DNA of 64,000 bases from the NCBI GenBank assembly GCA_017404065.1, contig JAFRDB010000099.1, positions 1 through 64,000 on the forward strand. Direction: 5' to 3'. The translations under genes and the position numbers were made by a program. The stretch is from Clostridia bacterium. Lineage in GTDB: Bacteria; Bacillota; Clostridia; UBA1381. Positions within the stretch are counted from its first letter, which is position 1, and every line of letters starts with the position of its first letter. Positions 1,832 through 19,163 of this stretch are shown piece after piece. The notes under the pieces are model-generated. The model had not been told where the DNA came from. It saw only the letters and a program-made list of their open reading frames with translations, and made no database searches.

Positions 1832-1860
1832 TTGACAAATCATCAAAAAGGTGATATCAT
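1832..1860 (+). promoter_or_regulatory. Sigma-A promoter of the small XRE gene
   Basis: TTGACA (1832-1837), 17-base spacer, TATCAT (1855-1860). The -10 overlaps a TATCATT half-site, so a bound repressor there would block RNA polymerase. Confidence 0.65.
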
Positions 1861-1905: not shown

Positions 1906-2103
1906 ATGTTTCCAAATTTAGAGGCAGAACAAAAAAAAGCTGGATTAACTGACCAAATGGCTGCCGATAAAATTGGATTGTCAAAAGCTTCTTTCAAAAA
2001 TAAAAAGAGAACAGGTAAGTTTTATATTCAAGAAATATTTAACCTATGTAATATGTTTAAATGTAAATTTGAATATTTATTTGTCTGGCAGGATGATAAT
2101 TAG
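1906..2103 (+). CDS. Small XRE-like DNA-binding protein
   Basis: A 65-residue protein that is almost entirely one helix-turn-helix domain: helices around EAEQKKAGLTDQMAADKIGL, with SKASFKNKKRTGKF as the recognition segment, and a C-terminal NLCNMFKCKFEYLF helix typical of HTH_26/Cro-like small regulators. It reads divergently from the larger XRE gene. The ATG at 1906 follows ggcggtgatcat. A 149-base gap separates it from the surface-complex operon, and no terminator was seen in that gap, so read-through into the operon is possible. Confidence 0.75.
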   Translation: MFPNLEAEQKKAGLTDQMAADKIGLSKASFKNKKRTGKFYIQEIFNLCNMFKCKFEYLFVWQDDN

Positions 2104-2252: not shown

Positions 2253-5200
2253 ATGGATTTTAACAAAAGGAACAAAATGATATCGGGTTCTTTGGCTGGT
2301 GCTATGCTTGTGTCCTCGTTTGGCAGTATTCCGGCACTCGCTGAGAATATGAATATAGATGTCAGCGAAGATGCGATGGTATATCTTGAGGGTGAGGGCA
2401 CAAGTGATAATTATGGTTCGGATGATTATATTATTCTGAGTTCTGAAAGCAACTCAATAGATGAAAATGGAACGAGGATCACATATCTTAAGTTCCGTAT
2501 TGATGATATTGATGTTAATTCAATTAGTGATATCACCTTGAAGCTTAAGCTGCAAGGCGGGTCAGATGATAATGGTGTCGTTGTGCGCGAAGCCGGCTCT
2601 GATTGGTCAGAGGATACTGTGAACGGCGAAAATAAGCCGGAGCTTGGCGATGTTATATCCGAGAATTCTGTAAATAACGGAGAAGAGATCATTGTAAGCA
2701 ATTTAAAGGCGGCAATTATAAAAGCATTGGAAGATGGTAAGACAGATATAACATTTGCTGTTCTCCTTAAGGGTGAAGGCAGCGTTTCTATAGCATCAAA
2801 GGAAAGCGGTGATGCGCCGGTTCTTACACTTATTGAGGATATTGCTGGCGATGATAACAATGTTTATGATATCATCCGGGATGATTTTATGCAAGTAGAG
2901 AATGCCTTTACTCTTTTTGCAATGTCAGGCAGCGATACTGACGAGACAGAGGCGAATGCAGTTATAACATTGATCGAAGCGTTAAAATCGGTAAATATAA
3001 CTGCTGAAAACTATACCGAATATTTTGACCAGATCAATGAATTGCGTAAGGCTTATGATGAACTTTCATATTATGCAAAGGCTATCGTCGGTAATGCTAA
3101 TCTGCAGGTGCTTACAAGCGCGGAGAGCAGCTACGAGCGTTTAGAGAAAGCTGATATTGATGCTGTAAATAATGCTGTAGATGATCTTGAAGAGCTTACG
3201 GCGGATAATTATCTGGAGAACAGCCGGACGTATGTGGACGCAAAGAAGCTTTATGATGACTTTGTTGCAAAGCAAAATGTGCTCGCATCAGGCTCGGACA
3301 GTGCTGTTGCGCGGCATGATTCTGCTATGGCGGAAATAAGTGCTGCTACAGATAAGCTGAACAGTATGAATGGAGATATTAACGGCTTCATGGATGCAGA
3401 TAAGGCTGCGTTCAAGTCTGCTGTTCAAACAAATCTTGATTTTAATATAACAGAAAAAGGTTTAGGCGAAGATCTGGCTGAGGCGTATGCTCCTTATGAT
3501 GTTCCGGGGAATATTTATATTACAAGATTTGTCAGTGAGGATGATTATAAAAAATTCCTTGATATAGAGGACTATATAGAGAATGCCGAAGGTATGTATA
3601 ATAAGATCAAAGAATCACCGTTATATGATGAATTTATATCTGACGATGATTTTAAGGATAATGCAGTACAGTATCTTAAGAATTATTATAAATACAAGGC
3701 GGATCAGCTTAAGGTCATGTACGGAGATACCGATAGTCTTGGCGAAAATATAAAGGATGCTGAGCGGTGGGATCCGGAAACAAATACGTTATACACATAT
3801 ATTGCAGAGCAGAGAGAAAAGGCTGATAATGCTCTTGATGCGGCAAAGGAGTTTGTCGGTGCCGATAATGAGGACGCATTAACTGCTGAACTCAGCGATT
3901 ACATAGCTTATCACGCTGCATTATTCGAGGCGATGAATATTACGATCGCTGATGCTATTGATGAGCTTGTTGAGGCCATCCTTCCGCTTGCCGGAGAGAC
4001 GGTTGATACCAATATAAATTATAATGAGCGTTATATCGCCGATCTGGACGAGGATGATCTGAAGGATCTTAATTTTACAATGGACGATATCGCGATAGTT
4101 GCAGCTGCTAAAAATGCACACTCGGGCTTCAATCAGTCAATCATGGAGTATTTGCATCAATATGACAATTCGAGATACTTGATCCTGTTCGATGTCGATG
4201 CAGAGGGGTTACCGGAGCCGCATGCTTTGATATCTGCTGCCTTGGATGAAATGGAAAATCTTGCAAATGCGGAAATGGCTAAATATCAAGGTCTGGTAGA
4301 CAAGATAAACGACTATGCTCTTAATTATAAGTCAGGCTTCGAGTCACAGCTGGGCGGAGCGGTTGATTCTCAGGATCCTGATGAGTTTATTGTAGAAATT
4401 GAGTCGCAGCTTGGCAATATCAAAGAAGCAGAGCTTATCGAGTATTATACATCAATAGAGAGAATGTCTGAAGATGCTGCGGAGGCTTATATTAATACTG
4501 CAAACGGCGGTGTTGGTACGGCGATACAGAACTTCAAAACAAAGCTTAGTGATATAAAGGATCTCAGATCCGTATCTAAGACGGCAACAGACGCTTATGA
4601 CGCTTTCGAAGAATATTTCGGTTACGACTATATGATGAATCAGGCGTCGAGCTATAATAATTTTGCAAAGCATGAGGATGTTGTTGAATTCGTTGACGAC
4701 TTTATAGAAAGTTATAACACTATAAATGGCGCGAGCATAACCCTTGACGATGTGATGGGCAAGTTTGATGCTGCGGTAGAGGCCAAGACGGCTTATGTTA
4801 CAGTTGCGGCTGGGTATTCAACAACCTATCCGTCAGATAATTATGAAGCTCCGGAAGAGCTTAACAGGCAGCAGCCGTATATGTCTGAGACTGAGCTTAA
4901 TGAGATCGAGAATCTTGCTGCAATACTCTATAAGCATATAGATATGACGGATTATCGTGAGAGAGTTTCTGACCTTTACGATACAGTATTTGACTTGGTT
5001 AACCGTAAAGAGGATCTTTATACTGCCCAGAACGGATTTGCAGATGTAGCTGAAGCAAAAGCAGCTTGTGATGCACTACGGGCAGAATATGATGCATTTA
5101 CCGATGAGCAGAAGTATTGTATTCCAAGAGATGCTGAGGAGAAGCTTAGTTCAACGCAGACAGAGCTTGATGCATGGGATACCGCGATAGACATTATGGA

Positions 5201-6920
5201 TGCTATCGACGCTATCGATGATGCTGATGAAATAGATGAGTTCACATCGCTTATCGAGGATGCTCAGGATAAGTATGGCGCTGCTGACGGCACACGAGCT
5301 GAGGAATTGGTAGCGGATGCTGCTTCGGATAAGCTTAACTTCTATAAGGAATTCATAGCTCTTTATAATGACATAATGGATGTCCCGGTCATCGTTTCCG
5401 AGCATCAAATAAAGGATTATGAGAGTGTTATATCGAATCTCAGAACAAGATTTGATGAGCTTGTTGTCGGTGATTATGCAAATGTATCGGCATTTGTAGG
5501 TAATGCAAAGAGAACGCTTGAGGACAGAGAATTTGAGATGGCATGCGCAAAGGAAGCAAGACGCGTAGATATGCTTATCAATGATCTTGATACATATGCA
5601 GATAAATTTGTAAACAGCAGTGATCCTGAGGATCTGAGAGCGTATGTTGATTACTACAGAGACGTTGTTGAGGATGCCGTTTCCGATCTTGAAAATGCTG
5701 ATGATGTTGACGGCAGACCGCAGAGTATGGCATTTGGTATGCTTCTTCAGTATTCGAAGTTTACACATCACAGAGAGGATATTGATAATCTCTGCGTTGA
5801 AGGCTTTGTAATGTTTGTTGACAACGTTGGTGTTATTGATTACACGTCTGATTTTGATGAAAAGCAGGAGCTTATAGACAAGGCTGATAAGTTCTATGAT
5901 GAAATACTTGTTCAGAGACAGTATGATGATGCAAGAACTGTTGCCGCAAAGACTAAGCTTGAAAATCTTAAGGCCACACTTGCAAGATGCAGAAAAGCAA
6001 GAGATGACGCTCAGGAGGCAATAGGCAGGATCGCTGAATTCAATAGTCTGCTTGATGAGCTGTACAGTATCGTTTATAAGCCGGATAGTGAAGTAAAGCT
6101 TGACGAAGAAGTCGTTCCTGAGATGGATGCTGTTGACTCATTGATTAAGTCGCTCAGTGAAGCTGATAACGAAATGAAATATGCCTATGAGTATATGGTC
6201 GCAAACGGATACATTGATTCCTATGATGCAGATGTTGCAGAGCTTATGGATAGATTCTCCTACTACAGCGTTCAGAAGTCAATTAACGAGCTTTGGGCTG
6301 AAGCGCAGGAGTCTAAGCATAATGATGAGCTGTTAGATATCACCTATCTTAAAGAGGTAGAGGATCAGTATAACGCTCTCAAATTCTACGAGTACTTCTA
6401 TGATACCGGCAGAAATCAGCAGGAGCTGGTTGAAAACTATTCAAAGCTTGCATGGGTAAGAGAAAAAGTCAATGAGAATGAGGATGCGTATATAGATCAG
6501 CTTGAGGAATATATGGATGAAACGGGACTTATGGATGCGGATGCTGAGGCACTTTCCATCTCATACAAGCCATATATAGAAAATGCAAATAACATATATA
6601 GCGCTATGTCGCCTGTTATGCAGTCAAATGTAGACACAGCACATTCCGAAAAGCTTCTTGCTCTCATTGATGCTTTGAAGGAGCTGGATGAGCTTTATGC
6701 TGTACGCGGCGGAAAGGCGGGCGATATTGATGAGGACGGCAAGGTTACGATCAAGGACGTTGTTATGATCGTTGACTTCGCTCTTGATAATGACATTGAC
6801 CCGGAGAATACAGCTCAGTATTTGAGAGCGGATATAGTATATCCCGAAAAGGGTAATGATGATGAAGATAAGATTGATATTAACGATGTAATTGCTGCTA
6901 TTGATCTGATCGAGTTTTAA
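2253..6920 (+). CDS. Large secreted helical protein with DNRLRE/CBM96-like and dockerin domains
   Basis: A 1555-residue exported protein. The signal peptide ends near residue 30 (SIPALA, then EN). Residues about 33-190 resemble a DNRLRE/CBM96-type beta domain (ITYLKFRIDDID, LKLKL, W-S-E-D-T-V-N). About 215-1490 is acidic, mostly helical and repetitive, with modules of the type A-x-Y-D-A-F-T-D-E-Q-K. The last 60 residues are a type I dockerin: first Ca-binding repeat GDIDEDGKVTIKDVVMIVDF, second repeat diverged by an insertion but keeping DKIDINDVIAAIDLI. The ATG follows aggaggag. The dockerin should dock it onto the cohesins encoded next. The function of the huge helical middle is unknown; a spacer or binding arm is a guess. 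No catalytic domain is recognised. Confidence 0.8.
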   Translation: MDFNKRNKMISGSLAGAMLVSSFGSIPALAENMNIDVSEDAMVYLEGEGTSDNYGSDDYIILSSESNSIDENGTRITYLKFRIDDIDVNSISDITLKLKLQGGSDDNGVVVREAGSDWSEDTVNGENKPELGDVISENSVNNGEEIIVSNLKAAIIKALEDGKTDITFAVLLKGEGSVSIASKESGDAPVLTLIEDIAGDDNNVYDIIRDDFMQVENAFTLFAMSGSDTDETEANAVITLIEALKSVNITAENYTEYFDQINELRKAYDELSYYAKAIVGNANLQVLTSAESSYERLEKADIDAVNNAVDDLEELTADNYLENSRTYVDAKKLYDDFVAKQNVLASGSDSAVARHDSAMAEISAATDKLNSMNGDINGFMDADKAAFKSAVQTNLDFNITEKGLGEDLAEAYAPYDVPGNIYITRFVSEDDYKKFLDIEDYIENAEGMYNKIKESPLYDEFISDDDFKDNAVQYLKNYYKYKADQLKVMYGDTDSLGENIKDAERWDPETNTLYTYIAEQREKADNALDAAKEFVGADNEDALTAELSDYIAYHAALFEAMNITIADAIDELVEAILPLAGETVDTNINYNERYIADLDEDDLKDLNFTMDDIAIVAAAKNAHSGFNQSIMEYLHQYDNSRYLILFDVDAEGLPEPHALISAALDEMENLANAEMAKYQGLVDKINDYALNYKSGFESQLGGAVDSQDPDEFIVEIESQLGNIKEAELIEYYTSIERMSEDAAEAYINTANGGVGTAIQNFKTKLSDIKDLRSVSKTATDAYDAFEEYFGYDYMMNQASSYNNFAKHEDVVEFVDDFIESYNTINGASITLDDVMGKFDAAVEAKTAYVTVAAGYSTTYPSDNYEAPEELNRQQPYMSETELNEIENLAAILYKHIDMTDYRERVSDLYDTVFDLVNRKEDLYTAQNGFADVAEAKAACDALRAEYDAFTDEQKYCIPRDAEEKLSSTQTELDAWDTAIDIMDAIDAIDDADEIDEFTSLIEDAQDKYGAADGTRAEELVADAASDKLNFYKEFIALYNDIMDVPVIVSEHQIKDYESVISNLRTRFDELVVGDYANVSAFVGNAKRTLEDREFEMACAKEARRVDMLINDLDTYADKFVNSSDPEDLRAYVDYYRDVVEDAVSDLENADDVDGRPQSMAFGMLLQYSKFTHHREDIDNLCVEGFVMFVDNVGVIDYTSDFDEKQELIDKADKFYDEILVQRQYDDARTVAAKTKLENLKATLARCRKARDDAQEAIGRIAEFNSLLDELYSIVYKPDSEVKLDEEVVPEMDAVDSLIKSLSEADNEMKYAYEYMVANGYIDSYDADVAELMDRFSYYSVQKSINELWAEAQESKHNDELLDITYLKEVEDQYNALKFYEYFYDTGRNQQELVENYSKLAWVREKVNENEDAYIDQLEEYMDETGLMDADAEALSISYKPYIENANNIYSAMSPVMQSNVDTAHSEKLLALIDALKELDELYAVRGGKAGDIDEDGKVTIKDVVMIVDFALDNDIDPENTAQYLRADIVYPEKGNDDEDKIDINDVIAAIDLIEF

Positions 6921-6941
6921 TTATGGCAGGGGAGTGTAACT

Positions 6942-9470
6942 ATGAAAAGAAAATTTATTTCTGCACTGCTAACTCTTGCTGTCGCTACAATGTCCTTATC
7001 TTCTCTCGCCGTTAACGCGGCGGGAGAAGGTAAGGTTGAATTTACAGCCGATCAAGCCCAAGTGTCAGCAGGGGAGACTTTCACATATACGTTGTCTGTT
7101 CCTGAGGCGCAAACAATAAAAGGCATACAGGCGGGTATATACTATGATGACAGCAAGCTTGAAGTGGAGAATTATGAATTCAATGAAGCCATAACTCTTG
7201 ATGCTTATGCTTCAAGTATAGATGCAAGTAACGGAAAAGCTGTGCTTGCGGCTACATTCAGCGAACCTGTAGAGATCGAAGGCGATATAGCGGTATTCAC
7301 ATTTAAGGTAAAGGATAACGCAGCATCCGGTGCGTTAGATTTTGGACTGACTGAGAACGGAGTCAAGCTCGTTAATATGGCAGGTGAAGAAGAGGATGCG
7401 GAAGCATCGCTTGGGATGGTATCAGTGAAGTACGACTATAGTGCAGAGCTAAAGGCAACAGTTACGGATAATATCGTCTATAACAACAGTGAGGTTTTAT
7501 ACACGCTAAGCATGACTGAGCTTGCAGATATGCGAGGTATTGCTTTTTCGATCGGCTATGACACCGATTTGTTGACTTTTGCTTCCGCCGAGGCGGTGGG
7601 AATGCTTGATGATGCATATACATCTGATATCAAAACAGATGAAAACGGTATTATCAATGTAGCCGCTGATTATAGTGAGCCTGTTAGCATAAAAGACGAC
7701 ATTCTCAGGCTCAAGTTTAAAGTGAATGAAAATCAGCCGGAGGGACAGTACTTTCCATTGACATTAAATTCCTTTGAGGCTGTAACGGCAGAGAAGGAAA
7801 CAGCGGATATTGATCTGAGCTTTAGCTCGGATCGGATATATCTGTTCAGACAGAGCGTTATCACAATGAGTTATACACCGGATAAGGCTTCTGTTAAACA
7901 GGGTAAAACGGTGGATTATATCATAACACTCGACAGCATTGCGGCAAGCCGCGGCTTCCAGGCGGAGCTTGACTATGATCCGGAGGTGCTCACCCCTGTG
8001 GAGGTCACAAAGGGCAGCGTTCTTGAAGATGCTGCTGTAGCATCCGGTATATCGGTTGAACACCCCGGTAAGGTCGATATAGTATGCGCTTATGATACCG
8101 AAATGGTCGAGATTGGCGAGGTTGCTGTAATAACCTTCAGGGTATCCGAAACGGCTGTGGATGGATATGCGGAGCTAAGCGCACTTGATGCGCTGGCTGT
8201 AGACGGAAGCTATAATTATGTTGATGCACGCAGCATAAACAACATAGAGCCGGTATATATCGGCAGAAAAGCGCAGAGCTATGTTATAGCTCCCAATGCG
8301 GACAAGAACAGCTATGCAATAGGTGATACAGTTTATTTGTCTGTGTCAATGGGTGATGTATCCGAGTTCCCGGGTGTTCAGTTTAAGATCAATTATAATA
8401 CAGATCTATTGGAATACATTGCGCCTTCAAGAAAATCGGAATATTATGGCAGCGTCCTTAGGGCTTCATCAGCGAAGGAGATAAATTCATCAAAAGCTGA
8501 TGAAGGATTTATCGAGATACTTTCCGGCTTCGGAACATCAGATCCATATACGGGAGAAGGAGATATATGCACACTATGCTTCAAGGTCATTGGTAATGGC
8601 CCGGCAAATGCTGAATTTTTAATTTCCGATATAACGCCGAAGAATGGTGATACGATCAAGGGAGAAACGGAAAGCATTAGTATTGTCAGCGCAACATTTC
8701 GCAGCGCTATTGAAGCCATTGATGAAATAGGCAGCTCTGTAAATGTTGAAAATATTGAAACTGTGCGTGCCGCTAAAGAGCTTTATGAATCGTTATCTGA
8801 TGAGGAAAAAGAGCTGGTAGAAAACATCAAGGCTCTTGAGAACGCGCTTGATGCACTTCCGGTAGTTGAGAAGATCGGCGATTTGGATAATATAACGGTT
8901 GAGAGCAAGGCGGCAATAGACGAAGCAAGAGCAGATTATGATGCTCTCACAGAAACAGAGAAGGCTTATGTGGGCAATATATCTGACCTTGTAGCGGCAG
9001 AGACTGTGTATGCAGAGATCGAAACAAAGATACAGTCGGTAATTGACAAGATAAACGGATTAGGTGATGTAACGATTGAGAGCAAGGCGGCAATAGACGA
9101 AGCAAGAGCAGATTATGATGCTCTCACAGAAGCAGAAAAGACAAGGGTGACCAATTACGCTGCGCTCATAGAGGCAGAGGCAGCGTATGAAGCCGCGTGG
9201 GAAGCCTTGAACGTGTACAGTTACTCATACACAAAGGCAGATAACAAGATCAATGTTTGCGTAACAAATAATAAGAGTGATTCTGATACGCCGATGATTA
9301 TTACTGCTCAGTATAATTCTGATGGTGCTCTTGTAGGTTTGAATGTTGAAACTCTTACTCTTGCAAAGGGTTCAACAACTGTTTACACCTATGATCTGAA
9401 AGAAAACTGCACAGATATCAAATGTATGCTTTGGGATGATCTATCGGTAATGCAGCCTTATAATAATTGA
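6942..9470 (+). CDS. Scaffoldin-like secreted protein with four cohesin-type domains
   Basis: An 842-residue protein with a signal peptide (cleavage near VNA-AGE, about residue 26). Four tandem cohesin-like beta-sandwich modules cover roughly 30-165, 168-305, 307-440 and 443-580. Each begins with a T/S-rich strand followed by 'G-x-x-x/Y-T-L-S' and has the cohesin hallmarks R/K-G-I/F-Q-x-x-I/L-x-Y-D and V-x-F-K-V. Then come three helical modules (about 585-760), two carrying an identical SKAAIDEARADYDALTE core, and an unassigned C-terminal beta domain (about 765-842). It has neither its own dockerin nor SLH domains, so how it is held at the surface is unclear. The 21-base gap from the upstream dockerin gene supports co-transcription. 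Cohesin subtype is not resolved. Confidence 0.78.
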   Translation: MKRKFISALLTLAVATMSLSSLAVNAAGEGKVEFTADQAQVSAGETFTYTLSVPEAQTIKGIQAGIYYDDSKLEVENYEFNEAITLDAYASSIDASNGKAVLAATFSEPVEIEGDIAVFTFKVKDNAASGALDFGLTENGVKLVNMAGEEEDAEASLGMVSVKYDYSAELKATVTDNIVYNNSEVLYTLSMTELADMRGIAFSIGYDTDLLTFASAEAVGMLDDAYTSDIKTDENGIINVAADYSEPVSIKDDILRLKFKVNENQPEGQYFPLTLNSFEAVTAEKETADIDLSFSSDRIYLFRQSVITMSYTPDKASVKQGKTVDYIITLDSIAASRGFQAELDYDPEVLTPVEVTKGSVLEDAAVASGISVEHPGKVDIVCAYDTEMVEIGEVAVITFRVSETAVDGYAELSALDALAVDGSYNYVDARSINNIEPVYIGRKAQSYVIAPNADKNSYAIGDTVYLSVSMGDVSEFPGVQFKINYNTDLLEYIAPSRKSEYYGSVLRASSAKEINSSKADEGFIEILSGFGTSDPYTGEGDICTLCFKVIGNGPANAEFLISDITPKNGDTIKGETESISIVSATFRSAIEAIDEIGSSVNVENIETVRAAKELYESLSDEEKELVENIKALENALDALPVVEKIGDLDNITVESKAAIDEARADYDALTETEKAYVGNISDLVAAETVYAEIETKIQSVIDKINGLGDVTIESKAAIDEARADYDALTEAEKTRVTNYAALIEAEAAYEAAWEALNVYSYSYTKADNKINVCVTNNKSDSDTPMIITAQYNSDGALVGLNVETLTLAKGSTTVYTYDLKENCTDIKCMLWDDLSVMQPYNN

Positions 9471-9493
9471 TGGTCAATGGAAAGAGGGGTTAT

Positions 9494-10723
9494 ATGTTCA
9501 GAAGATTCTGTAGCTTTTTATCTGTCATTGCGGTGTCCTTTGCGGTGGCGGCAGCTAACGTGTGCGCATCGGATGAGGATATTCTGACAATAGAGCAAAG
9601 CGCGGTTCGCATTCGTAATAACGAAACAGTAGATATTGCCATAGGCTTTAATTTATCGGAGCCTATAAGAGGGGTGCAGTTTACTGTCAGCTATGATTAC
9701 GGTAAATTCGAAGTCAGCAAAGTTACCAAAGGCGATGCTGCTGATGATGCCGTAGTGAGCAGGATAGATACCGAAACCTTTGGAAAGGTGAATGTTGCAA
9801 TCATTTATGACTCTGAATATCGATATAACGGTCAAATATGTACAATAACCCTGATTTCAAGAGAGAAAACCGGTTTAGGCGAATCTCTGGTAAACGTGCG
9901 CGGCATAACGTTTACGGACAAGGATAATAAAAATGTCAAATGCGGAGATATGAGCACGAAGGTTGAGCTGTATTCGGATAATCATCCTGCAACGGAAACT
10001 CCGGTCACAGAAGCTCCTATCAATGAGACTTTGCACAGTACAGAACAACCGACCCGCCCGTCCGCTGGAAAAAGCTCCGGCGGAGGGGGCGGATCCTTCG
10101 GTGTGTCGGGTAATAATGTAACTGAGACTACTTCTCCTATGGCTACAGCTACGGCAGAGCCGGAGGAGATAACACCAACTAAACAGAGTTGCGGATTTAC
10201 TGATATTGCAGGTCACTGGGCCGAGGCTGATATTGAATATCTGTATGATGCCGGAATAATAAATGGAGTCAGTGATACAGAATTCATGCCGGAACAAAAT
10301 GTTACAAGAGCTGAATTTGTAAAAATGATTTTTGAGATCGCCGATTTTGGAGAGATTACTGAAAATCCGTTTGATGACATTACTGAGAATGCATGGTATT
10401 ATGAGCCTGTATTAAAAGCATATTCTGCAGGGATCGTGAATGGATACGATGTCAAATTTTTACCTGAGCAAAATATAACTCGTGAGGAAATGGCAGTAAT
10501 TGCGGACCGCTGCATAAAGCTCCTGGGTTATGAGCGACCGGTAGTAAATGAGCTCGTATTTGCGGATGCAGAGACTTTTTCCAATTGGAGCAGGGATGCC
10601 ATCGCAAGAATGGCAGGCATGGGTTTGTTGAACGGAAAGGATGCAGATTTTGCGCCAAAGGAATATACAACCAGGGCGCAGGCTGCAGCAGTAATAAAAA
10701 GAATATATGATTTTCATAATTAA
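9494..10723 (+). CDS. Cell-surface anchor with one cohesin-type domain and three SLH domains
   Basis: A 409-residue protein from the ATG at 9494, chosen because agagggg lies 5 bases upstream and the protein then opens with a signal peptide (MFRRFCSFLSVIAVSFAVAA, cleavage near VCA-SDE). A longer frame from a TTG at 9467 overlaps the previous stop. Residues about 25-165 form one cohesin-like module (EPIRGVQFTVSYDYGKFEVS). A Thr/Pro/Gly-rich linker follows, then three SLH repeats, each with F-x-D-I/A and a TRA/TRE motif: FTDIAGHWAEADIEYL, DDITENAWYYEPV, FADAETFSNWSRDAI. This is the architecture of cellulosome anchoring scaffoldins such as the SdbA/OlpB type, so it probably ties dockerin proteins to the cell wall polymer. 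Confidence 0.82.
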   Translation: MFRRFCSFLSVIAVSFAVAAANVCASDEDILTIEQSAVRIRNNETVDIAIGFNLSEPIRGVQFTVSYDYGKFEVSKVTKGDAADDAVVSRIDTETFGKVNVAIIYDSEYRYNGQICTITLISREKTGLGESLVNVRGITFTDKDNKNVKCGDMSTKVELYSDNHPATETPVTEAPINETLHSTEQPTRPSAGKSSGGGGGSFGVSGNNVTETTSPMATATAEPEEITPTKQSCGFTDIAGHWAEADIEYLYDAGIINGVSDTEFMPEQNVTRAEFVKMIFEIADFGEITENPFDDITENAWYYEPVLKAYSAGIVNGYDVKFLPEQNITREEMAVIADRCIKLLGYERPVVNELVFADAETFSNWSRDAIARMAGMGLLNGKDADFAPKEYTTRAQAAAVIKRIYDFHN

Positions 10724-10737
10724 ATAGGGGTGGTGAT

Positions 10738-11469
10738 ATGAGAAAGATAGCAAGTATGGCAGTCGGCATTCTATGTGCGGCTGTCATATCAGTGTCAGTA
10801 GGAGCGGATTATAACGATGAGCTTGATAGCTTGATATCAGAGAATAGCAGCAGCAGTTATTTCTCATCTATAACACTGAAGGCAGGCTTGCCTGTAATGG
10901 TCAAGGATAGTGTAGAGGTACAAATGAGAAATACGCCGGTCGTTATCAACGGAACAACTTATGTTTCTCCCATTGATCTTGTCAGTCATTATGATGCGGA
11001 TTATGAGGAGAGCGGCAATGTGTTTTTTATAACACAGGGCAGCATGAAGGTAAGCGGCGAAGTTGGAAGCGATATATTATGGCTCGAATTTTCTCAAAAC
11101 AGTATGTTTAACACAGCTGTCAGGATGCAGGCGGAATGCATAAGACTTGGTAATGTTATTTATCTGCCTGTACGCGCTATTGTTGAGAATGTGTTTGCCG
11201 GCAATGTGCTTTGGTCTGATGAAACCCAAAGGATTTTGCTCACAAGAGATTATCAAACAAAAAGGCTGATAGTGAAGGTAAAAGGAGATGCTTCGATCAT
11301 CGAGGCAATTCCTTGTGCGGCAAAAGTATCAGATAATTCCGGTCATTGGATAATTCAGTTTGATAATAACACAGCAGATTATATTGTTAAACAATATGAT
11401 GAGTTTTTATCAATGCAGCATGGAAATATTGAGTATTCTGATCCGGATATACTTATAATATCGGCATGA
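10738..11469 (+). CDS. Secreted prodomain-like protein, paralogue of the N-terminus of the next gene's protease
   Basis: A 243-residue protein with a signal peptide (cleavage near VGA-DYN, residue 23). Residues about 45-175 resemble the copper-amine-oxidase N-terminal-type 'stalk' domain (VVINGTTYVSPIDL, VIYLPVRAIVENVF). Residues 180-243 resemble an I9-type protease propeptide (DYQTKRLIVKVKG, then WIIQFD and IEYSDPDILI). The same order and the near-identical DYQTKRLI-x-K block occur in residues 30-243 of the adjacent subtilase, but here the chain stops where the catalytic domain would begin. It could act in trans as a folding aid or inhibitor of the protease; that role is inference. Gap to each neighbour is about 15 bases. 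Confidence 0.75.
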   Translation: MRKIASMAVGILCAAVISVSVGADYNDELDSLISENSSSSYFSSITLKAGLPVMVKDSVEVQMRNTPVVINGTTYVSPIDLVSHYDADYEESGNVFFITQGSMKVSGEVGSDILWLEFSQNSMFNTAVRMQAECIRLGNVIYLPVRAIVENVFAGNVLWSDETQRILLTRDYQTKRLIVKVKGDASIIEAIPCAAKVSDNSGHWIIQFDNNTADYIVKQYDEFLSMQHGNIEYSDPDILIISA

Positions 11470-11485
11470 AGGAAAGGAAGGTAAT

Positions 11486-14400
11486 ATGAAACTTAGAATT
11501 AAGACAGTAAGCAATATATTAGCTTTAGGGTTAGCGGCATCGGCAATACCTGTTATGCCGGTAAAAGCTGAAAGCGATTTCAGTTCACAGCTTGCGACGC
11601 TTATCAATGAGAATATGTCGGATTATATTGAGAGCGTACAGTTCAGAATAGATCATGAGCGTTATACGGTAAATAATCAAGAAAAAAAACTGGATGCAGC
11701 ACCGCAGATCATTGATGGCAGAACCATGCTTCCCGCAAGAGCGGTCGCAGAAGCTTTAGGCGGTGAAGCTGATTATGATAACGAAACACATGATATTAAA
11801 ATATCAAAGGACGATACAGAGCTTACAATGCAGGCAGGCAATAATAATATTACTGTTTCAAGTAATGACGGACAGTCTACCATCACAGCAGATGTCGCGC
11901 CGACTATCGTTAACGATCGTACTCTGGTGCCTGTTAGAGTCATTTCCGAAACATTGGGTACATCGGTAACATGGGATGGAGATACCAGCACTGTAACGAT
12001 TGTTCCTGATTATCAGACCAAGCGTTTGATAATAAAAAGCGATGGACGTAATCTGGATTTTGAAAGATTTAATCCAAAGAAGGTAATTACCGATGATAAC
12101 GGTCTTTACATAGTTCAGTTCAAGAAAACTATAGGTGATGCTACGATAAAACATTATGCGGAGCAAATTGAACAAATGAACTATGTTGAGTATGTTGATC
12201 CGGACATTGTGTTAACAGAAAGCTCTGACATTCAATATAAATATACCGGTTCAGACAGTAACGAATCAATCACCAAAACGAGACTTGCTGAATATGCAAC
12301 TGAAATTGGACGTGACAATCTAAACAAAGTAAAAATCGGAATAATTGAGTTGGGACAGTTTGATCAACATAAGGATTTTGCCAAAGACTTAATATTGCTT
12401 GATCATGACAAAGGTTCAACAGATGATGGTGAAAGAAACCATGCAACCATTGATGCAGGTATTATTGATAAAGGATTAAGAAATATTGGTACCGAAAACT
12501 ATGAAATTCATGGATACAGCGGTTTTTCCACGGTCATAGACAGTAATAACAAATCGTTTGGTTTTGCGTCAGATATAAAAGGACATATTGAACAAGCTAT
12601 AATAGATGGATGTCAGTTGATAAACCTGTCGTTTGCAACATATTTGGTAAAACGCGAGAATCTGGATTATATTGATGATGCCGTAAAGCTATCTGCCCAA
12701 AAAGGTGTGCTACTTGTTATTGCAGCGGGAAACTTTAATGACGAGGTCATGCAGTTATATAATGGTGAGGAATGGGGATATTATCCCGCGGCATTTTCCA
12801 AATACGACAATGTAATAACAGTAGCGGCAACGGATTTTAGTAATTCAAAATATGTTAAGAATAATTACAGTGACAAGGGTTATGTAGACATAGCTGCACC
12901 TGGTGTAGATATAACAGGGTATGGGATCAACAACAGATACTGTGTTTTGAGCGGTACCTCACAGGCTGCACCACATGTTACAGCGGCAGCAGCGTTGCTG
13001 AAGGCAAAGCACAACTACACTCCGGCAGAGTTAAAGCGTGAGCTTAAGAGTAAACTGTATACAGTAGATATCAATGATGATCCAAATCACAGATACGGTG
13101 TAGGAACACTTAATATGTACGCCTCTGAAGCACCGATAAGCCCAAACAAGACGCTTACATCGTGTGCGTGGGACACACAGGCTATGAGTGTTGCTATAGG
13201 TTCACAGACAAAGCCGGTTATAAAAGGTACATATTCGGATGGCACAACAGCAGATGTGAGCTCACACTTCACCCTATCATCAAGCGATAGCAGCGTTGCA
13301 GCGATCGAAAACGGTGCTGTAAAGGGTGTTAAAGCCGGAACCGCTACTATTACTGCTTCAAGTAGCGAACAAGGCTACAGTGTTACGGGTAGTATCACGG
13401 TAACGGTTACCGAAGCCCCGCAGAATGCTGTTTTAACAGGCTATGAGGTGTTGCCAAAGAATGTATCTGTTGTCAAGGGTGATACAGCGGATGTCAAGGC
13501 TTATGCGGTATATAGCGATGGCACAAGGAAGGATATAACGGATACTGTTGGATGGGTTGCACATGATACTTCCGTTGCAAGTGTTTCAAACGGTCATATA
13601 AAAGGCTTATCAGAGGGAAGGACTAATGTAACCATATCATTTGCGGTGAGTGCGAGCGAAAGCTTTGCTGCGCCGAATCATGTTTCTGTTACTGTAACGG
13701 AGGAAAACAGGGTAATGCCATCGTCTGTTACTCCGCCGCCGTTTGACCGGCCGCAGAATGATCCAAACAGCAATGCAGATTCTATCATTGCTTACAGATG
13801 GTCAGATGACAGCGATATATCATTGGCTCCCGGCGAAACTGCAAATATAAAGGTATATGCAGTATATAGCAGCGGCAGAGAGGCAGATGTGACATCAAGT
13901 GTTGGTGTAACAAGTACCGATACAAATGTTGTAACAGTGAACTCGGTAGGAAAGCTTAAGGCTGTAGGCTCCGGTAAGTCAAGAATTACGATTAGTATGG
14001 CTGCATCGGCATCAGTTTCAATGCCAAGACCAATAACTGTTACTGTAGACCGGTCAATAACCGGATATGAATGGTCAGACTCGTCATTTGGCTTAAAAGT
14101 AGGAGATAGTGAATATATCAAGCTTTATGCGGTTTATAATGACGGGACAAGAGAAGATGTGACATCACAGGCAGGACTGCAGTCAACAGATCCTGATGTG
14201 GCATCTGTAACAAATTCAGGTATGATCATAGCGAACGGCGCAGGAAAAGCAAGAATAACTATGAGCGTGGCAGCATCGGCATCGGTGTCTATGCCGGGAC
14301 CGGTAACTGTGAATGTAGAGGATGTCCGTAGGAATGTGTCATCTGTAATATACGGTGATATAAATGGTGACGGGAAGATAAATACCAGAGACGTATCTGC

Positions 14401-14554
14401 TATGCAGAATATCGTTCTTGGCGAGAGTAGTCCCACATCCGAGCAGGAGATCGCAGCAGATCTGGACGGAAACGGAAGAATTGATGACGAAGACCTGACA
14501 TTGCTCAGAAAGCGGGTCATGGGTTCAAATACACCCTTCCCGGTAGAAGAATAA
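11486..14554 (+). CDS. Secreted S8 subtilisin-like protease with Ig-like repeats and a dockerin
   Basis: A 1022-residue protein: signal peptide (to about residue 28), copper-amine-oxidase-N-like domain (55-175), I9-like propeptide (176-243), S8 peptidase domain (about 280-545), four Big_2-like Ig domains (about 555-950) and a C-terminal type I dockerin (about 952-1015; GDINGDGKINTRDVSAMQN and ADLDGNGRIDDEDLTLLRKR). In the peptidase the Ser (GTSQAAPHV, S492), the oxyanion Asn (AAGN, N416) and the His (NHATIDAGII, H319) align with subtilisin. The usual Asp of the V-I-D-S/T-G motif is Glu (IGIIELG, E288), so activity is uncertain. The dockerin predicts assembly on the operon's cohesins. The cleaved substrate is unknown. 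Confidence 0.85.
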   Translation: MKLRIKTVSNILALGLAASAIPVMPVKAESDFSSQLATLINENMSDYIESVQFRIDHERYTVNNQEKKLDAAPQIIDGRTMLPARAVAEALGGEADYDNETHDIKISKDDTELTMQAGNNNITVSSNDGQSTITADVAPTIVNDRTLVPVRVISETLGTSVTWDGDTSTVTIVPDYQTKRLIIKSDGRNLDFERFNPKKVITDDNGLYIVQFKKTIGDATIKHYAEQIEQMNYVEYVDPDIVLTESSDIQYKYTGSDSNESITKTRLAEYATEIGRDNLNKVKIGIIELGQFDQHKDFAKDLILLDHDKGSTDDGERNHATIDAGIIDKGLRNIGTENYEIHGYSGFSTVIDSNNKSFGFASDIKGHIEQAIIDGCQLINLSFATYLVKRENLDYIDDAVKLSAQKGVLLVIAAGNFNDEVMQLYNGEEWGYYPAAFSKYDNVITVAATDFSNSKYVKNNYSDKGYVDIAAPGVDITGYGINNRYCVLSGTSQAAPHVTAAAALLKAKHNYTPAELKRELKSKLYTVDINDDPNHRYGVGTLNMYASEAPISPNKTLTSCAWDTQAMSVAIGSQTKPVIKGTYSDGTTADVSSHFTLSSSDSSVAAIENGAVKGVKAGTATITASSSEQGYSVTGSITVTVTEAPQNAVLTGYEVLPKNVSVVKGDTADVKAYAVYSDGTRKDITDTVGWVAHDTSVASVSNGHIKGLSEGRTNVTISFAVSASESFAAPNHVSVTVTEENRVMPSSVTPPPFDRPQNDPNSNADSIIAYRWSDDSDISLAPGETANIKVYAVYSSGREADVTSSVGVTSTDTNVVTVNSVGKLKAVGSGKSRITISMAASASVSMPRPITVTVDRSITGYEWSDSSFGLKVGDSEYIKLYAVYNDGTREDVTSQAGLQSTDPDVASVTNSGMIIANGAGKARITMSVAASASVSMPGPVTVNVEDVRRNVSSVIYGDINGDGKINTRDVSAMQNIVLGESSPTSEQEIAADLDGNGRIDDEDLTLLRKRVMGSNTPFPVEE

Positions 14555-14619
14555 CAAGCTAATAATTTTCCGGGGTACTACAGCTGCGGAGGATTAATAA
14601 TAAATAGAGGAGGTTTTAT

Positions 14620-15321
14620 ATGAAACTAAAAAAAATATTGGCCATTAGTTTAGCATCTGTTTCTATGCTGGTGTCATCAACAAGTGTACTTGCGGAGCAC
14701 ACAACACTTGATGGATATGGTCAGGAATGGGATGATTACAGTTACACTGCAAACCAGAAGTTTAAGGATGTTCCGCCGAGTCATTGGGCATTTAAAGCCA
14801 TAGACAGAGTTGTAAATAAGGGTTGGTTCAGTGGGTACGCAGACGGAACGTTCCATCCGAATGATGTTATAACCAGAGCTGAGGCGGTTACTGTATTCAT
14901 GAATTTTACAGGCGTACAGCCCCAGAATGTGACAGAAACATCATTTACAGATGTCTCGCCAAGTGACTGGTATGCACCATATATTGAAGCGGGAAAGGAT
15001 TATCTGCCGTTGAGAACAACATATATGGGAACAAATCCGTTTTTGCCTAATCAGCCGGTTACAAGAGAGGATGTATGCTATGGTCTTGTTAAAATTAAGG
15101 GGTATGAATCAGATACACAGTATGCTAACCGGTTTGTCCTGAATATGTTCAGCGATCAGAACAGTATTTCTGATGATGTGAAACCGTATGTTGTTGTTGC
15201 GGTTGAAAAGAAGCTTATATCGGGATATGATGACGGCACACTGGGTGCACAGGATCCGTTAACGAGAGCCGAGTTTGCGACAATGCTTTACAGAGCGTCA
15301 TATGTTGGCACAAACGGATAA
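14620..15321 (+). CDS. Secreted SLH-domain protein (SLH only)
   Basis: A 233-residue protein with a signal peptide (cleavage near VLA-EHT, residue 25) and three SLH repeats filling the rest: FKDVPPSHWAFKAIDRVV with GYADGTFHPNDVITRAEAV; FTDVSPSDWYAPYIEA with QPVTRED; and MFSDQNSISDDVKPYVVVAV with GYDDGTLGAQDPLTRAEFAT. It is the shortest of three adjacent related proteins and has no further domain, so it may coat the wall or be a minimal S-layer-like subunit. The ATG follows gaggaggtttta. A 65-base gap separates it from the protease gene. Confidence 0.85.
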   Translation: MKLKKILAISLASVSMLVSSTSVLAEHTTLDGYGQEWDDYSYTANQKFKDVPPSHWAFKAIDRVVNKGWFSGYADGTFHPNDVITRAEAVTVFMNFTGVQPQNVTETSFTDVSPSDWYAPYIEAGKDYLPLRTTYMGTNPFLPNQPVTREDVCYGLVKIKGYESDTQYANRFVLNMFSDQNSISDDVKPYVVVAVEKKLISGYDDGTLGAQDPLTRAEFATMLYRASYVGTNG

Positions 15322-15341
15322 AAGATAGGAGGAATTAAATA

Positions 15342-17222
15342 ATGAAAAAAATACTTTCTATAGCAATAGCTTCTGTAATGTTATTTTCAAATAGCGCGTT
15401 AGCTATTGATTATGGCAGTGAATGGTCAGGGCATACTGCCACATCGTCAACCTCTTTTAAGGATGTGCCGGATGGTCATTGGGCAAAAGATAATATTGAC
15501 AGAGTTGTAGCTAAGGGCTGGTTCAATGGCTATGAGGATGGAACTTTCCATCCTAATGATTCTATTACAAGGGCGGAGGCGATGACCGTATTTGTTAAGT
15601 TTTTAGGTCTACAGCTTAAAACTGTTGAGAACAGTTCATATTATGATGTAAAAATAACAGATTGGTATTGTCCTTACATTGAAAGAGGAAAGCTGTTGTT
15701 CCCTAAGATCACTACATATGATGGTCAAACGCCGTTCCAGCCTAATATGCCTATAACAAGAGAGGACACTGTATATGCACTCGTAACGGCACTTAGATAT
15801 ACGGATGATACACTGTTTGCAGATCAGTCTGCACTTAATATGTTCAAGGATAAAAATAGTATATCTGAGCTTATAAAGCCATATATGGTCGTAGCTGTAC
15901 AGAAAGGGTTGGTGTCCGGCTATGATGATGGTACCATAGGCGCACAGGATCCGCTAACAAGAGCGGAATTTGCTACTCTGCTTTATAGAGCAACATATAT
16001 CGGTTTCGGAACATCGGTGCTTAATCTTGATGATGATACACCAACGGTTTCAAGTATTGAGCTCGCTCCAATCAGCCCATATCAGATGCATATAGGCGAA
16101 TCGGTACAGATCACTGCTCACGCATTGATGAGTACCGGTACAAGAGAGGACTACAGTGCAAACCTTTATCCTGTTACAACAGATTCATGCATTGCGGTAG
16201 ATGGAAATACTATAAAGGCTGTTTCAGCAGGCACAGGAACTGTTAAGTTCTTAAATGATGCAAATTTGGCAAATTCAACTATAACGATCGTTGTATCAAA
16301 TCCGACAGGATCACCGGTGTTCGGAACTATTACTGCGCCGGATACGGTAACGACAAGCACAGCTACCATCACTGGTAGTGTAAGTGATCCTTCAGGTGCA
16401 GCGCTGACGTTGGATATGGATGGCGAGAGTGTAAATCTGTCCGGTAATTCATTCTCAAAAACAGTAAATCTTGAGGTAGGTACAAACACATATGTATTCA
16501 CCGTTAAGAATATATATGGTGCTACAGCTGTAAAGACTGTAAGAATAAAGAGAGAGAATGAGGCAGCGCCGGTGCGTACAGCAGAGCCGACAGCTGCTCC
16601 GGCGGATACAGCAACAACGGCTCCGAGATCAAACCGCTCAGATGATGATGATAAGTATCTGACCTCGATGGAGTGGTCTGTATCATCACTTGATATGTCT
16701 GCAGGCGAGTCAGCAAGTATAAAGCTGTATGGTATTTATAGTGACGGTTCAAGAGAGGATATAACAGGTAACTATGGTTTTTCATCAACAGATGAGAGCG
16801 TTGCAACGATAAATTCACGTGGTAAGATCACAGCTGTATCAGGCGGTACTACCAGGATCACGTTCAATATGGCAAGCAGCGCATCGGTTTCAATGCCTGC
16901 TCCGCTTAAGGTAACAGTAAGAGGCGGCAACTCAACAAGTTCAGGGGATGCTGTACTGACAGGTCTTGAGTGGTCCACAAGTTCAGTAACTGTAAGTGCG
17001 GGAGAAAATGCAACATTTAAGCTGTACGGCATATACAGTGATGGCAGTAAGGCTGATTTGACGACAGAATGTGGAGTTTATGCGTTAGATGATGATATCG
17101 CATCGGTAAGCGGCACAAAAATAAAGGGTATAAGTAAAGGAACTACCCAGCTTTGGTTCTCCTCCATTCCGTCAACGAACATTAGCTTGCCGGGAATGCT
17201 TGATGTTAAAGTAGTTGAATAA
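15342..17222 (+). CDS. SLH protein with Ig-like (Big_2 type) repeats
   Basis: A 626-residue protein: signal peptide (cleavage near ALA-IDY, residue 21), three SLH repeats (about 38-222), a Big_2-like domain (235-322), a second Ig-like domain (323-410), a Pro/Thr/Ala linker (411-440), and two more Ig-like domains (441-626). The third of these carries the segment ITFNMASSASVSMPAPLKV, nearly the same as ITISMAASASVSMPRPITV in the dockerin protease, so the two proteins share a recent domain ancestor. The N-terminal SLH block is close to that of the next gene (IDYGSEWSG against LDYGSEWSG). No enzyme domain is seen; it is a likely surface spacer or adhesin. Confidence 0.82.
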   Translation: MKKILSIAIASVMLFSNSALAIDYGSEWSGHTATSSTSFKDVPDGHWAKDNIDRVVAKGWFNGYEDGTFHPNDSITRAEAMTVFVKFLGLQLKTVENSSYYDVKITDWYCPYIERGKLLFPKITTYDGQTPFQPNMPITREDTVYALVTALRYTDDTLFADQSALNMFKDKNSISELIKPYMVVAVQKGLVSGYDDGTIGAQDPLTRAEFATLLYRATYIGFGTSVLNLDDDTPTVSSIELAPISPYQMHIGESVQITAHALMSTGTREDYSANLYPVTTDSCIAVDGNTIKAVSAGTGTVKFLNDANLANSTITIVVSNPTGSPVFGTITAPDTVTTSTATITGSVSDPSGAALTLDMDGESVNLSGNSFSKTVNLEVGTNTYVFTVKNIYGATAVKTVRIKRENEAAPVRTAEPTAAPADTATTAPRSNRSDDDDKYLTSMEWSVSSLDMSAGESASIKLYGIYSDGSREDITGNYGFSSTDESVATINSRGKITAVSGGTTRITFNMASSASVSMPAPLKVTVRGGNSTSSGDAVLTGLEWSTSSVTVSAGENATFKLYGIYSDGSKADLTTECGVYALDDDIASVSGTKIKGISKGTTQLWFSSIPSTNISLPGMLDVKVVE

Positions 17223-17252
17223 AAAAAGAGATTAGAGAGGAAGGAAAGTAAA

Positions 17253-19052
17253 ATGAAAAAAATCGCAAGTATAATTTTATCAGCATCTTTGATAGCTGCT
17301 TTGGCTGCGCCTGTAAGTGCGCTGGATTATGGCAGTGAGTGGAGCGGAAGAACAGCCGCTGTTACAAATACATTCTCTGATGTGCCGGCAGATCACTGGG
17401 CAATTTCAAATATTGACAGGGCCGTTAAGTCAGGGTGGTTTAATGGCTATGAGGACGGAACATTTCATCCGAATGACTCGATTACCAGAGCTGAGGCAAT
17501 GACTGTATTTGTAAAATTTCTTGGTTTACAGATTAGTACAGTAAGCAGTAGCTCATATTATGATGTAAAACCAACAGATTGGTATGCTCCATACATTGAG
17601 GCTGGCAAAAAGCTGTTTCCTCAAAAGGTTACGTTTGACGGTCAGACACCATTCCAGCCGGAAATGCCTATAACAAGAGAGGATACAACATATGCGCTTG
17701 TTATAGCATTGAAGTACAATGATAAGGTAGTAAATGCAGATCAGTCAAATCTGAACATGTTTAAAGATAAAAACAGTATATCTGAAAACATTAAACCATA
17801 TGTTTCAGTAGCCGTCAAGTATGGTCTTGTTTCAGGCTATGAAGATGGAACGATAGGTGCGCAGGATGCGCTTACCAGAGCAGAGTTTGCAACAATGTTA
17901 GCTCGCGGAACAACAATTGGTTACGGTACAGGTGGTGGTCTTGCTGATGTTCCGGAGGTCGAGACGGCAGCAACACCTGCACCGATCGAAACAGCAGCTC
18001 CGGTAACACCTGTTCCGGCAACTCCTGCGCCTGCAGCATCAGGAACACTGCAGGGAAGAGTTGTAGATGCCGGTAATAACCCGATATCAGGAGCAACAAT
18101 AACATTGTCTGACGGTTCAACAACAGTAACAGATGGCAATGGTCAGTATAATATTGATACATCTGCGTCAAGCGTTACGATCACAGCATCATCAGAAGGT
18201 TATGTAAGCGCTCAGACAACAACTAATGTAACGCCCGGAATAGTTAATTATGTTGAAACACTTACTCTTGTAGTTGAAGCACAGGGAACTATTTCAGGTA
18301 AGGTATATGATGCGGTTGTTCAAGGCGGTATCGTTGAAGGCGCAACGATCAATTTCCGCGCTAACGGTAACACAACGACCGGCGAAGTAGTTGCAACAAC
18401 TACTTCAGCTGCAGACGGCAGCTTCTCAGTTTCGTTACCGACAGGCACATATACAGCAGAGGGTATAAAGTCGGGGTATAGCACTGCTTATGTTACTGTA
18501 GTTTCGCAGGTTGAGAGTGCACAGCAGGATATAACACTTGCTCCGGAAATGGAAGGAACAGCTTTTGTACTTACATGGGGCGAAACACCGGCGGATCTTG
18601 ACTCGCATCTTACAGGTCCTACAAGTGACGGCAGATTTCATGTGTATTATGTGGACATGAATGCTTCTGACAATAATGAAACTGTAGCAAATCTTGATCG
18701 TGATGATGTAACATCGTACGGACCGGAAACTGTAACACTTTTACAGCAGAACAATGGTACTTATAGATATACAGTTCATGATTATACAAATAGATACTCT
18801 ACAGATTCAAAAGCAATGTCACTTTCCGGTGCAAAGGTTACAGTGTATGTAAATGGTGTATACAGAGACACATTCAATGTTCCTACAAATGTTGGTGGAA
18901 CTATCTGGACAGTATTTGAACTGAATGGTAACACAATAACACCGATCAATACAATGGCGTATGAGTCTGATCCGTCCGCAGTGAGTGCATCTACTACGAG
19001 AGCATCCAGCTACGATGTTGATATCATAAGCGGTTCAATAATTGAGAAATAA
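17253..19052 (+). CDS. SLH protein with carboxypeptidase-regulatory-like domains and a YfaP-like C-terminus
   Basis: A 599-residue protein: signal peptide (cleavage near VSA-LDY, residue 23), three SLH repeats (about 38-225), Thr/Pro/Ala linker (226-262), two carboxypeptidase-regulatory-like beta domains (LQGRVVDAGNNPISGATITL near 266, and ISGKVYDAV near 348), then a C-terminal domain (about 437-560) with LTWGETPADLDSHLTGP, the hallmark of the YfaP/DUF2135-like family. The function of that family is unknown. It is the last gene of the surface operon, followed 21 bases after its stop by a strong terminator. Confidence 0.83.
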   Translation: MKKIASIILSASLIAALAAPVSALDYGSEWSGRTAAVTNTFSDVPADHWAISNIDRAVKSGWFNGYEDGTFHPNDSITRAEAMTVFVKFLGLQISTVSSSSYYDVKPTDWYAPYIEAGKKLFPQKVTFDGQTPFQPEMPITREDTTYALVIALKYNDKVVNADQSNLNMFKDKNSISENIKPYVSVAVKYGLVSGYEDGTIGAQDALTRAEFATMLARGTTIGYGTGGGLADVPEVETAATPAPIETAAPVTPVPATPAPAASGTLQGRVVDAGNNPISGATITLSDGSTTVTDGNGQYNIDTSASSVTITASSEGYVSAQTTTNVTPGIVNYVETLTLVVEAQGTISGKVYDAVVQGGIVEGATINFRANGNTTTGEVVATTTSAADGSFSVSLPTGTYTAEGIKSGYSTAYVTVVSQVESAQQDITLAPEMEGTAFVLTWGETPADLDSHLTGPTSDGRFHVYYVDMNASDNNETVANLDRDDVTSYGPETVTLLQQNNGTYRYTVHDYTNRYSTDSKAMSLSGAKVTVYVNGVYRDTFNVPTNVGGTIWTVFELNGNTITPINTMAYESDPSAVSASTTRASSYDVDIISGSIIEK

Positions 19053-19073: not shown

Positions 19074-19117
19074 AACAGATCCCGTTCAGCTTATCCCTGT
19101 ACGGGATCTGTTATTTT
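19074..19117 (+). terminator. Rho-independent terminator of the surface-complex operon
   Basis: Perfect 12-bp stem, AACAGATCCCGT (19074-19085) with ACGGGATCTGTT (19101-19112), followed by a short T-rich tail. It closes the unit that begins at 2253. Confidence 0.85.
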
Positions 19118-19134: not shown

Positions 19135-19163
19135 TTGACAAAGCTTTTATGTCGGGGTATAAT
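19135..19163 (+). promoter_or_regulatory. Consensus sigma-A promoter of the HAD phosphatase gene
   Basis: TTGACA (19135-19140), 17-base spacer, TATAAT (19158-19163): a perfect vegetative promoter. Transcription would start near 19170. Confidence 0.9.

Follow-up and report, generated by a model that had tools for sequence, protein, structure and literature searches.

An eight-gene operon predicted to encode a non-cellulosomal, wall-tethered cohesin-dockerin surface complex in a Clostridia bacterium

Cellulosomes of the Acetivibrio thermocellus type with SLH-anchoring scaffoldins combine a multi-cohesin protein, dockerin-bearing partners, and a cohesin-SLH anchor, and the operon described here has the same kinds of parts. 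Dockerins are also known on other cargo. In C. thermocellum, dDoc_0689, an S8 protease with a dockerin, binds the cell-bound ScaD (review PMC12484212), and group 4 dockerins of Ruminococcus flavefaciens are carried by LRR and transglutaminase/peptidase proteins, for which the authors suggested cell-surface structuring (PMC2930009). For the cip-cel operon of C. cellulolyticum, selective RNA processing has been reported (PMC4423207). The operon studied here (genes P1 to P8) lies in a window of 64,000 nucleotides, bases 1 to 64000 of the 83.6-kb contig JAFRDB010000099.1 (C60) of a Clostridia bacterium, whose draft assembly comprises 3.06 Mb and is 98.5% complete. Judged from sequence, the operon may build a non-cellulosomal, wall-tethered cohesin-dockerin surface complex with P1 as its main part, a reading to which we give a probability of approximately 0.5.

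The eight open reading frames are codirectional on the plus strand, span positions 2253 to 19052 with intergenic gaps of −4 to 66 bp, and all encode secreted-type proteins. A terminator hairpin is found 3′ of P8 (about 19074 to 19113; z score, −5.7, from the sequence), and the next gene, encoding a HAD phosphatase, has its own promoter with a 12/12 consensus match at 19135. These positions bear out the initial annotation of this DNA, which had described eight same-strand genes ending in one terminator. Its view of the operon as self-contained also held, with cohesins, dockerins, and SLH anchors all encoded within it, and the five cohesins, the dockerin of P5, and the SLH repeats of P3, P6, P7, and P8 were all above the Pfam cut-off.

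P1 (2253 to 6920) is a secreted, predicted helical rod of 1555 aa with an N-terminal CBM96/DNRLRE domain (Pfam E value, 1.7e−18) and a C-terminal dockerin. P2 (6942 to 9470; 842 aa) contains four cohesins along with helical repeats and, at its C terminus, a small beta domain; the four modules previously called by motif pass the Pfam Cohesin profile (2e−42) in four stretches, at 7038 to 7343 (5.7e−12), 7455 to 7829 (1.7e−9), 7875 to 8210 (3.9e−16), and 8301 to 8630 (3.4e−9). P3 (9467 to 10723) combines three SLH repeats (1.3e−35) with one cohesin (4.2e−8; module at 9617 to 9943, 1.1e−8), as expected of a wall anchor. Two dockerin proteins had been annotated. In P5, the type I dockerin (PF00404; 14339 to 14524) has both Ca-binding loops canonical and was recovered by Pfam (1.5e−13) and by a profile built from dockerins of the same family (2.7e−26), whereas the divergent dockerin of P1 (6708 to 6917) went undetected by Pfam and was found by the family-made profile (1.1e−17), P1's own dockerin being among the ten rows of that profile. 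In the dockerin alignment, the first Ca loop of P1 is canonical and the second is interrupted, in three orthologues.

Of 95 genomes searched in the order, 3 have a full-length P1 protein, which was found with this operon type only, and a scan of GTDB returned the same two named P1 genomes plus a third, partial match in an unrelated neighborhood. All eight genes recur in the same order in a second genus of the family (L095; JAQXZB010000030.1), with identities for P1 to P8 of 39.5, 37, 33, 31, 31, 65, 58, and 69%; L071 represents the same place. In a third genus, from water deer rectum (L096; JAGBHE010000068.1), P1 (25% identity over the full length), P2, and P3 are followed by four SLH proteins, and P4 and the protease are both absent. 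Since P1 to P3 and SLH proteins are kept in L096 without P4 and the protease, the core is made up of the anchor and the giant dockerin and multi-cohesin proteins, with the protease as an optional passenger. The expectation that the gene order would recur in related genomes was thus borne out, completely in L095/L071 and for the P1-P3 core in L096. The finding of full-length P1-type proteins with this operon only, together with the eight-gene and core synteny, supports a surface complex built around P1.

A looser version, consisting of a giant helical dockerin protein, a three-cohesin protein, and a cohesin-SLH anchor, is found in the same genus (L072 and L073) and speaks for the same reading. 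In L072, the giant dockerin protein appears to be split into frames of 216 aa (11950 to 12600) and 1614 aa (12587 to 17431) that overlap by 14 bp, which is either an assembly error or a real frame break. Pfam cohesins were identified in 48 of 70 genomes of the family, and comparable cohesin/dockerin operons occur across it, so that the compact system is less unusual than first supposed. A second recurrent operon type (L013, L114, L118, L119, L121, L122, and L125) comprises, in varying order, a cohesin-SLH anchor, a protein with one or two cohesins, and a giant cohesin plus dockerin protein, and includes LRR cargo.

When the three P1 proteins were combined into a profile, convincing matches to the PDB were limited to its two ends: the DNRLRE/CBM96 structure 8wab was matched with an E value of 5e−11 and dockerin-bearing chains weakly, with an E value of 0.005. 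An AlphaFold2 model of P1 residues 918 to 1555, made from three sequences, is purely helical and includes long helices (mean predicted local distance difference test score [pLDDT], 70); its predicted template modeling score of 0.40 leaves the overall shape uncertain. As a candidate for a known fold, P1 was rejected, with no PDB fold match below an E value of 0.001; the weak fold matches of the model include spectrin-type rods and an S-layer protein. Taken with the CBM96 domain at the N terminus and the dockerin at the C terminus, the helical model suggests a rod with one fixed and one free end.

The four cohesins of P2 are only 21 to 31% identical to one another, and each is 35 to 52% identical to the cohesin at the corresponding position in L095, a match with starred support at positions 1 to 3. 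At the sister locus L016, paired cohesins are 70% alike. Because conservation is position specific despite the low mutual identity, the modules appear to be four distinct sites, or four modules retained for separate reasons. Such divergence, unlike the ordinary repeated cohesins of scaffoldins, would also be expected if the P2 cohesins were mostly immunoglobulin-like stalk modules that had lost dockerin binding, leaving only the P3 cohesin to capture P1 and P5; the excess of cohesins over dockerins and the lack of a route from P2 to the wall point the same way. With all four modules above the Pfam profile and each conserved with its positional orthologue, which argues for a kept surface, we regard stalk modules as unlikely. 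No dockerin was found in P2 by Pfam or by the family dockerin profile; therefore, the usual scaffoldin-to-anchor link, here P2 onto the P3 cohesin, is missing, and the logic of cargo, scaffold, and wall anchor ascribed to the operon does not close into a chain. Pfam likewise identified no wall domain and no CBM3 in P2. A cell-free P2, shed to capture dockerin proteins of other community members in addition to P1, would fit the missing dockerin and wall domain and the four distinct, position-conserved cohesin types; nothing specific supports it, and its probability appears very low.

P5 (11486 to 14554) carries, by Pfam, a Cu_amine_oxidN1 domain, a Peptidase_S8 domain (PF00082; 3.4e−26), Big_2 repeats, and the dockerin described above, with a propeptide-like region between the first two domains. 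The alignment of a P5-type profile to pro-subtilisin E (3whi) runs from position 215 and takes in the propeptide, and P5 also matches the PDB chains 8x39/8x3a, entitled "Serine protease." In alignments with subtilisins, the catalytic His (His319; codon at 12440 to 12442) and Ser (Ser492; 12959 to 12961) are retained and Asn416 aligns with the active-site Asn, whereas the position of the catalytic Asp32 of subtilisin BPN′ is occupied by Glu288 (12347 to 12349). The L095 orthologue has the identical Glu, His, Asn, and Ser set, and four other subtilases of the genus have the catalytic Asp. On this basis, the change from Asp to Glu is a conserved substitution rather than decay. The otherwise highly conserved HGT motif is changed in both P5 orthologues (HAT and HGA). 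Of the earlier statement that the operon carries a protease, the subtilase fold with His, Asn, and Ser stands and the catalytic Asp does not. The predicted P5 structure (pLDDT, 45) was unusable for the geometry of Glu, His, and Ser.

The gene preceding P5, P4 (10738 to 11469), encodes a Cu_amine_oxidN1 domain (Pfam, 5e−9) and a propeptide-like C terminus. It matches P5 residues 12 to 258, including the propeptide-aligned region, with 28% identity (2e−19), and corresponds to a copy of the P5 N terminus without the catalytic domain; a role as a propeptide-like inhibitor or chaperone in trans is a reasonable inference. Glutamate works in the Ser-His-Glu triads of other hydrolases. The operon could accordingly be imagined as a wall-anchored proteolytic complex, in which an active P5 would be recruited through its dockerin, P4 would act in trans, and Glu would functionally replace Asp. 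Retention of His, Asn, Ser, and the propeptide-like region in two orthologues that are 31% identical overall, the conserved propeptide-like neighbor P4, and the precedent of dockerin-borne S8 proteases bound to cell-surface scaffoldins (PMC12484212) are in its favor. The loss of the catalytic Asp in both orthologues, when four other subtilases of the genus keep it, the altered HGT motif, and the protease-free operon of L096 make this rather improbable. The proteolytic complex named in the initial annotation is therefore unproven, its protease being optional and missing with P4 from the third operon, and the adhesive or surface-complex reading is preferred.

Across its whole genome, this bacterium encodes 15 cohesins, spread over several loci of four contigs, and has six dockerin sites: P1, P5, one on contig C52, one on C90, and two on C91. 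With the family-built profile, none of the six was on a glycoside hydrolase; the absence of such cargo, noted at first for the operon, thus extends to the genome. On C52, on C90, and at one C91 locus, the dockerin belongs to a giant protein of LRR or lectin type that bears a cohesin as well and whose gene is adjoined by further cohesin genes. This adhesion-type cargo supports the surface reading. The remaining C91 dockerin is on a 245-aa protein (L015, 13570 to 14307), which is secreted, has two dockerin-like repeats, and is encoded close to a Cu_amine_oxidN1-cohesin gene and the gene for an SLH protein. Of the features of a cellulosome, a multi-cohesin protein (P2) and a cohesin-bearing SLH wall anchor (P3) were found; dockerin-borne carbohydrate-active enzymes and the joining of scaffoldin to anchor by its own dockerin were not. 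A dispersed cellulosome, with carbohydrate-active cargo encoded elsewhere and loaded in trans, would explain the cellulosome-type parts, the CBM96 domain, and the gut habitat of at least one relative. Given only six dockerins in a nearly complete genome, none of them on a glycoside hydrolase, and a P2 without CBM3, it is largely refuted by the genome-wide dockerin profile and deserves the least credence of the alternatives.

In the preferred surface complex, P1 would form a long helical rod whose free end carries a carbohydrate-binding-type domain, and the C-terminal dockerin of P1 would plug into the anchor P3 and/or P2. Single wall-bound rods, together with bundles joined by P2, could then serve in adhesion or as a surface coat. 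P5 might be docked beside the rods, held by its Cu-amine-oxidase-type wall domain, and would be either a pseudoprotease or a slow processing protease; P4 would be its propeptide-like partner in trans, and P6 to P8 would be coexpressed SLH proteins of the same layer. Several points weigh against this model. The cohesin-dockerin pairs within the operon are predicted, and with its degenerate second Ca loop, the P1 dockerin may be weak or atypical. Similarity to CBM96 is no proof of sugar binding by P1, and the Glu-His-Ser set of P5 could form an active protease. Moreover, the four cohesins of P2 outnumber the operon's dockerins (two, or one in L096, which keeps four cohesins); therefore, ligands encoded in the operon cannot account for all of the cohesins.

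The most stable 45-nt hairpin of the operon, with a 19-bp stem (6994 to 7035, plus strand; z score, −6.8), lies in the signal-peptide codons of P2, 51 nt into the gene and ∼70 nt past the P1 stop codon. The top operon hairpin is likewise at position +51 of P2 in L095 and at +47 in L096, which places it in three genera. Among secreted genes, 14% of signal-peptide regions fall below −20 kcal/mol, compared with 2% of internal controls, and the three most stable hairpins among 215 are those of the P2 genes. This putative element may set the amounts of P1 relative to P2.

The operon ends with three further SLH genes: P6 (14620 to 15321; three SLH repeats; 65% identity to its orthologue), P7 (15342 to 17222; two SLH repeats and Big_2-like domains; 58%), and P8 (17253 to 19052; two SLH repeats and CarboxypepD_reg domains; 69%), with all repeats above the Pfam cut-off, as are the three of P3. 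Upstream, a gene for an XRE-type helix-turn-helix (HTH) regulator (1339 to 1731, minus strand; HTH_19, 4e−13; HTH_3, 9e−13) is divergent from the operon, and a small Cro/C1-type HTH protein of 65 aa is encoded at 1906 to 2103 (plus strand; from its translation, with HTH_26 at 0.0015, under the Pfam cut-off). Between them, a consensus scan identified TTGACA-17-TATCAT with a TG extension (1832 to 1860, plus strand; 11/12), the likely operon promoter. An Rfam search of positions 1 to 24000 of the window gave no matches. Farther downstream, the minus strand (21917 to 24772) encodes a 951-aa protein with an NlpC/P60-like C-terminal motif (recognized by eye), whose gene also has a strong signal-peptide hairpin.

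In relatives, a codirectional tyrosine recombinase lies just upstream, no more than one gene off, in 9 of the 27 cohesin plus dockerin clusters of the family with a visible upstream side. The count was made by hand, and the profile used derives from five of these recombinases, of which two were checked with Pfam; the estimated chance expectation is ∼0.4%, from ∼20 such domains in the 3.06-Mb genome. Inverted repeats were found at all nine recombinases and at L130, beside a cohesin-only gene. Their scores were 16 to 33, against a control 99th percentile of 18, with only L096 falling below. In 6 of the 10, the recombinase lies between the repeats or overlaps them; in the other 4, the repeats flank an adjoining segment of ∼170 to 230 bp. 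The paired arms are at 9226-9252/10561-10587 (L013), 17701-17727/18922-18948 (L072), 10332-10358/11656-11682 (L079), 4704-4730/6058-6084 (L084), 9158-9184/9411-9437 (L095), 6313-6336/7712-7735 (L096), 5892-5917/6091-6116 (L103), 11629-11647/11846-11864 (L119), 7717-7749/9024-9056 (L121), and 16103-16124/16295-16316 (L130, upstream of the cohesin-only gene). Three of the four short segments hold an 11/12 or 12/12 promoter, each directed away from the operon in the assembly, as expected for the OFF state of a switch. These loci are thus likely, if putative, DNA-inversion (phase-variation) switches, and the orthologous operons of L095 and L096 both have recombinase and repeats. Attachment sites of mobile islands were considered and rejected, as the two copies are inverted rather than direct, which fits inversion better. 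Beyond one general review, no literature linking dockerins with phase variation or invertible promoters was found.

The putative phase-variable cohesin kits were located in relatives and not in the window. The 2.2-kb region upstream of the window operon contained no recombinase, its best inverted repeats were short and AT rich, and the predicted promoter is directed into the operon; a search for a switch at this promoter was negative. One half-site without a partner arm, ACAACATAAT at 1757, of which 0.3 occurrences would be expected in the window, is a weak lead; as ACAACATAATCGAA (1757 to 1770), it resembles the switch site ACATAATCGAAATTATGT of contig C41, possibly as a relic or by chance. 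The L095-type recombinase has six paralogues in the same genome, and inverted repeats lie close to at least five of these. Paralogues at L137, L138, L140, L141, and L142 (contigs C94, C41, C27, C96, and C58) have palindromic inverted repeats of the ACATAAT...ATTATGT type, and several are near genes for secreted or SLH proteins, which suggests that promoter inversion is used more widely in this genome.

A broader proposal, held tentatively and at somewhat less than even odds, is that cohesin-dockerin pairing in this family is mainly a non-cellulosomal surface system, with more than one operon kit in a genome, every kit being self-sufficient in cohesins and dockerins and bringing cargo that is adhesin-like or a pseudoprotease; one-third of the kits would be switched by recombinase-driven promoter inversion, the window type having a multi-cohesin protein with four differently addressed sites. 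If so, whole operons across a bacterial family would use the cohesin-dockerin toolkit for surface structures unrelated to plant-fiber digestion, and the inversion switches in relatives would tie these complexes to phase-variable adhesion and host or phage interaction rather than nutrition. The compact set of five cohesins and two dockerins would suit specificity studies, and the conserved Asp-to-Glu subtilase would be a test case for an S8 protein with a Ser-His-Glu triad versus a binding module.

Compared with the A. thermocellus-type cellulosome, the operon differs in that P2 has neither a dockerin nor CBM3, no carbohydrate enzyme is dockerin borne, and the cohesins within P2 are mutually divergent. 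The chains 8x39/8x3a matched by P5 are probably the dDoc_0689 module. P5 shares with dDoc_0689 a subtilase, a type I dockerin, and a proposed cell-surface location, but has a single dockerin, a Cu_amine_oxidN1 N terminus, Glu in place of Asp, and its own operon with cohesins. The group 4 dockerins of R. flavefaciens are similar in being borne by non-carbohydrate proteins; they are part of a large cellulosome, whereas the genome described here is without one. As in cip-cel, a stable stem-loop near the scaffoldin gene could set stoichiometry, although here the hairpin, with its putative role, lies inside the P2 signal-peptide codons just beyond P1.

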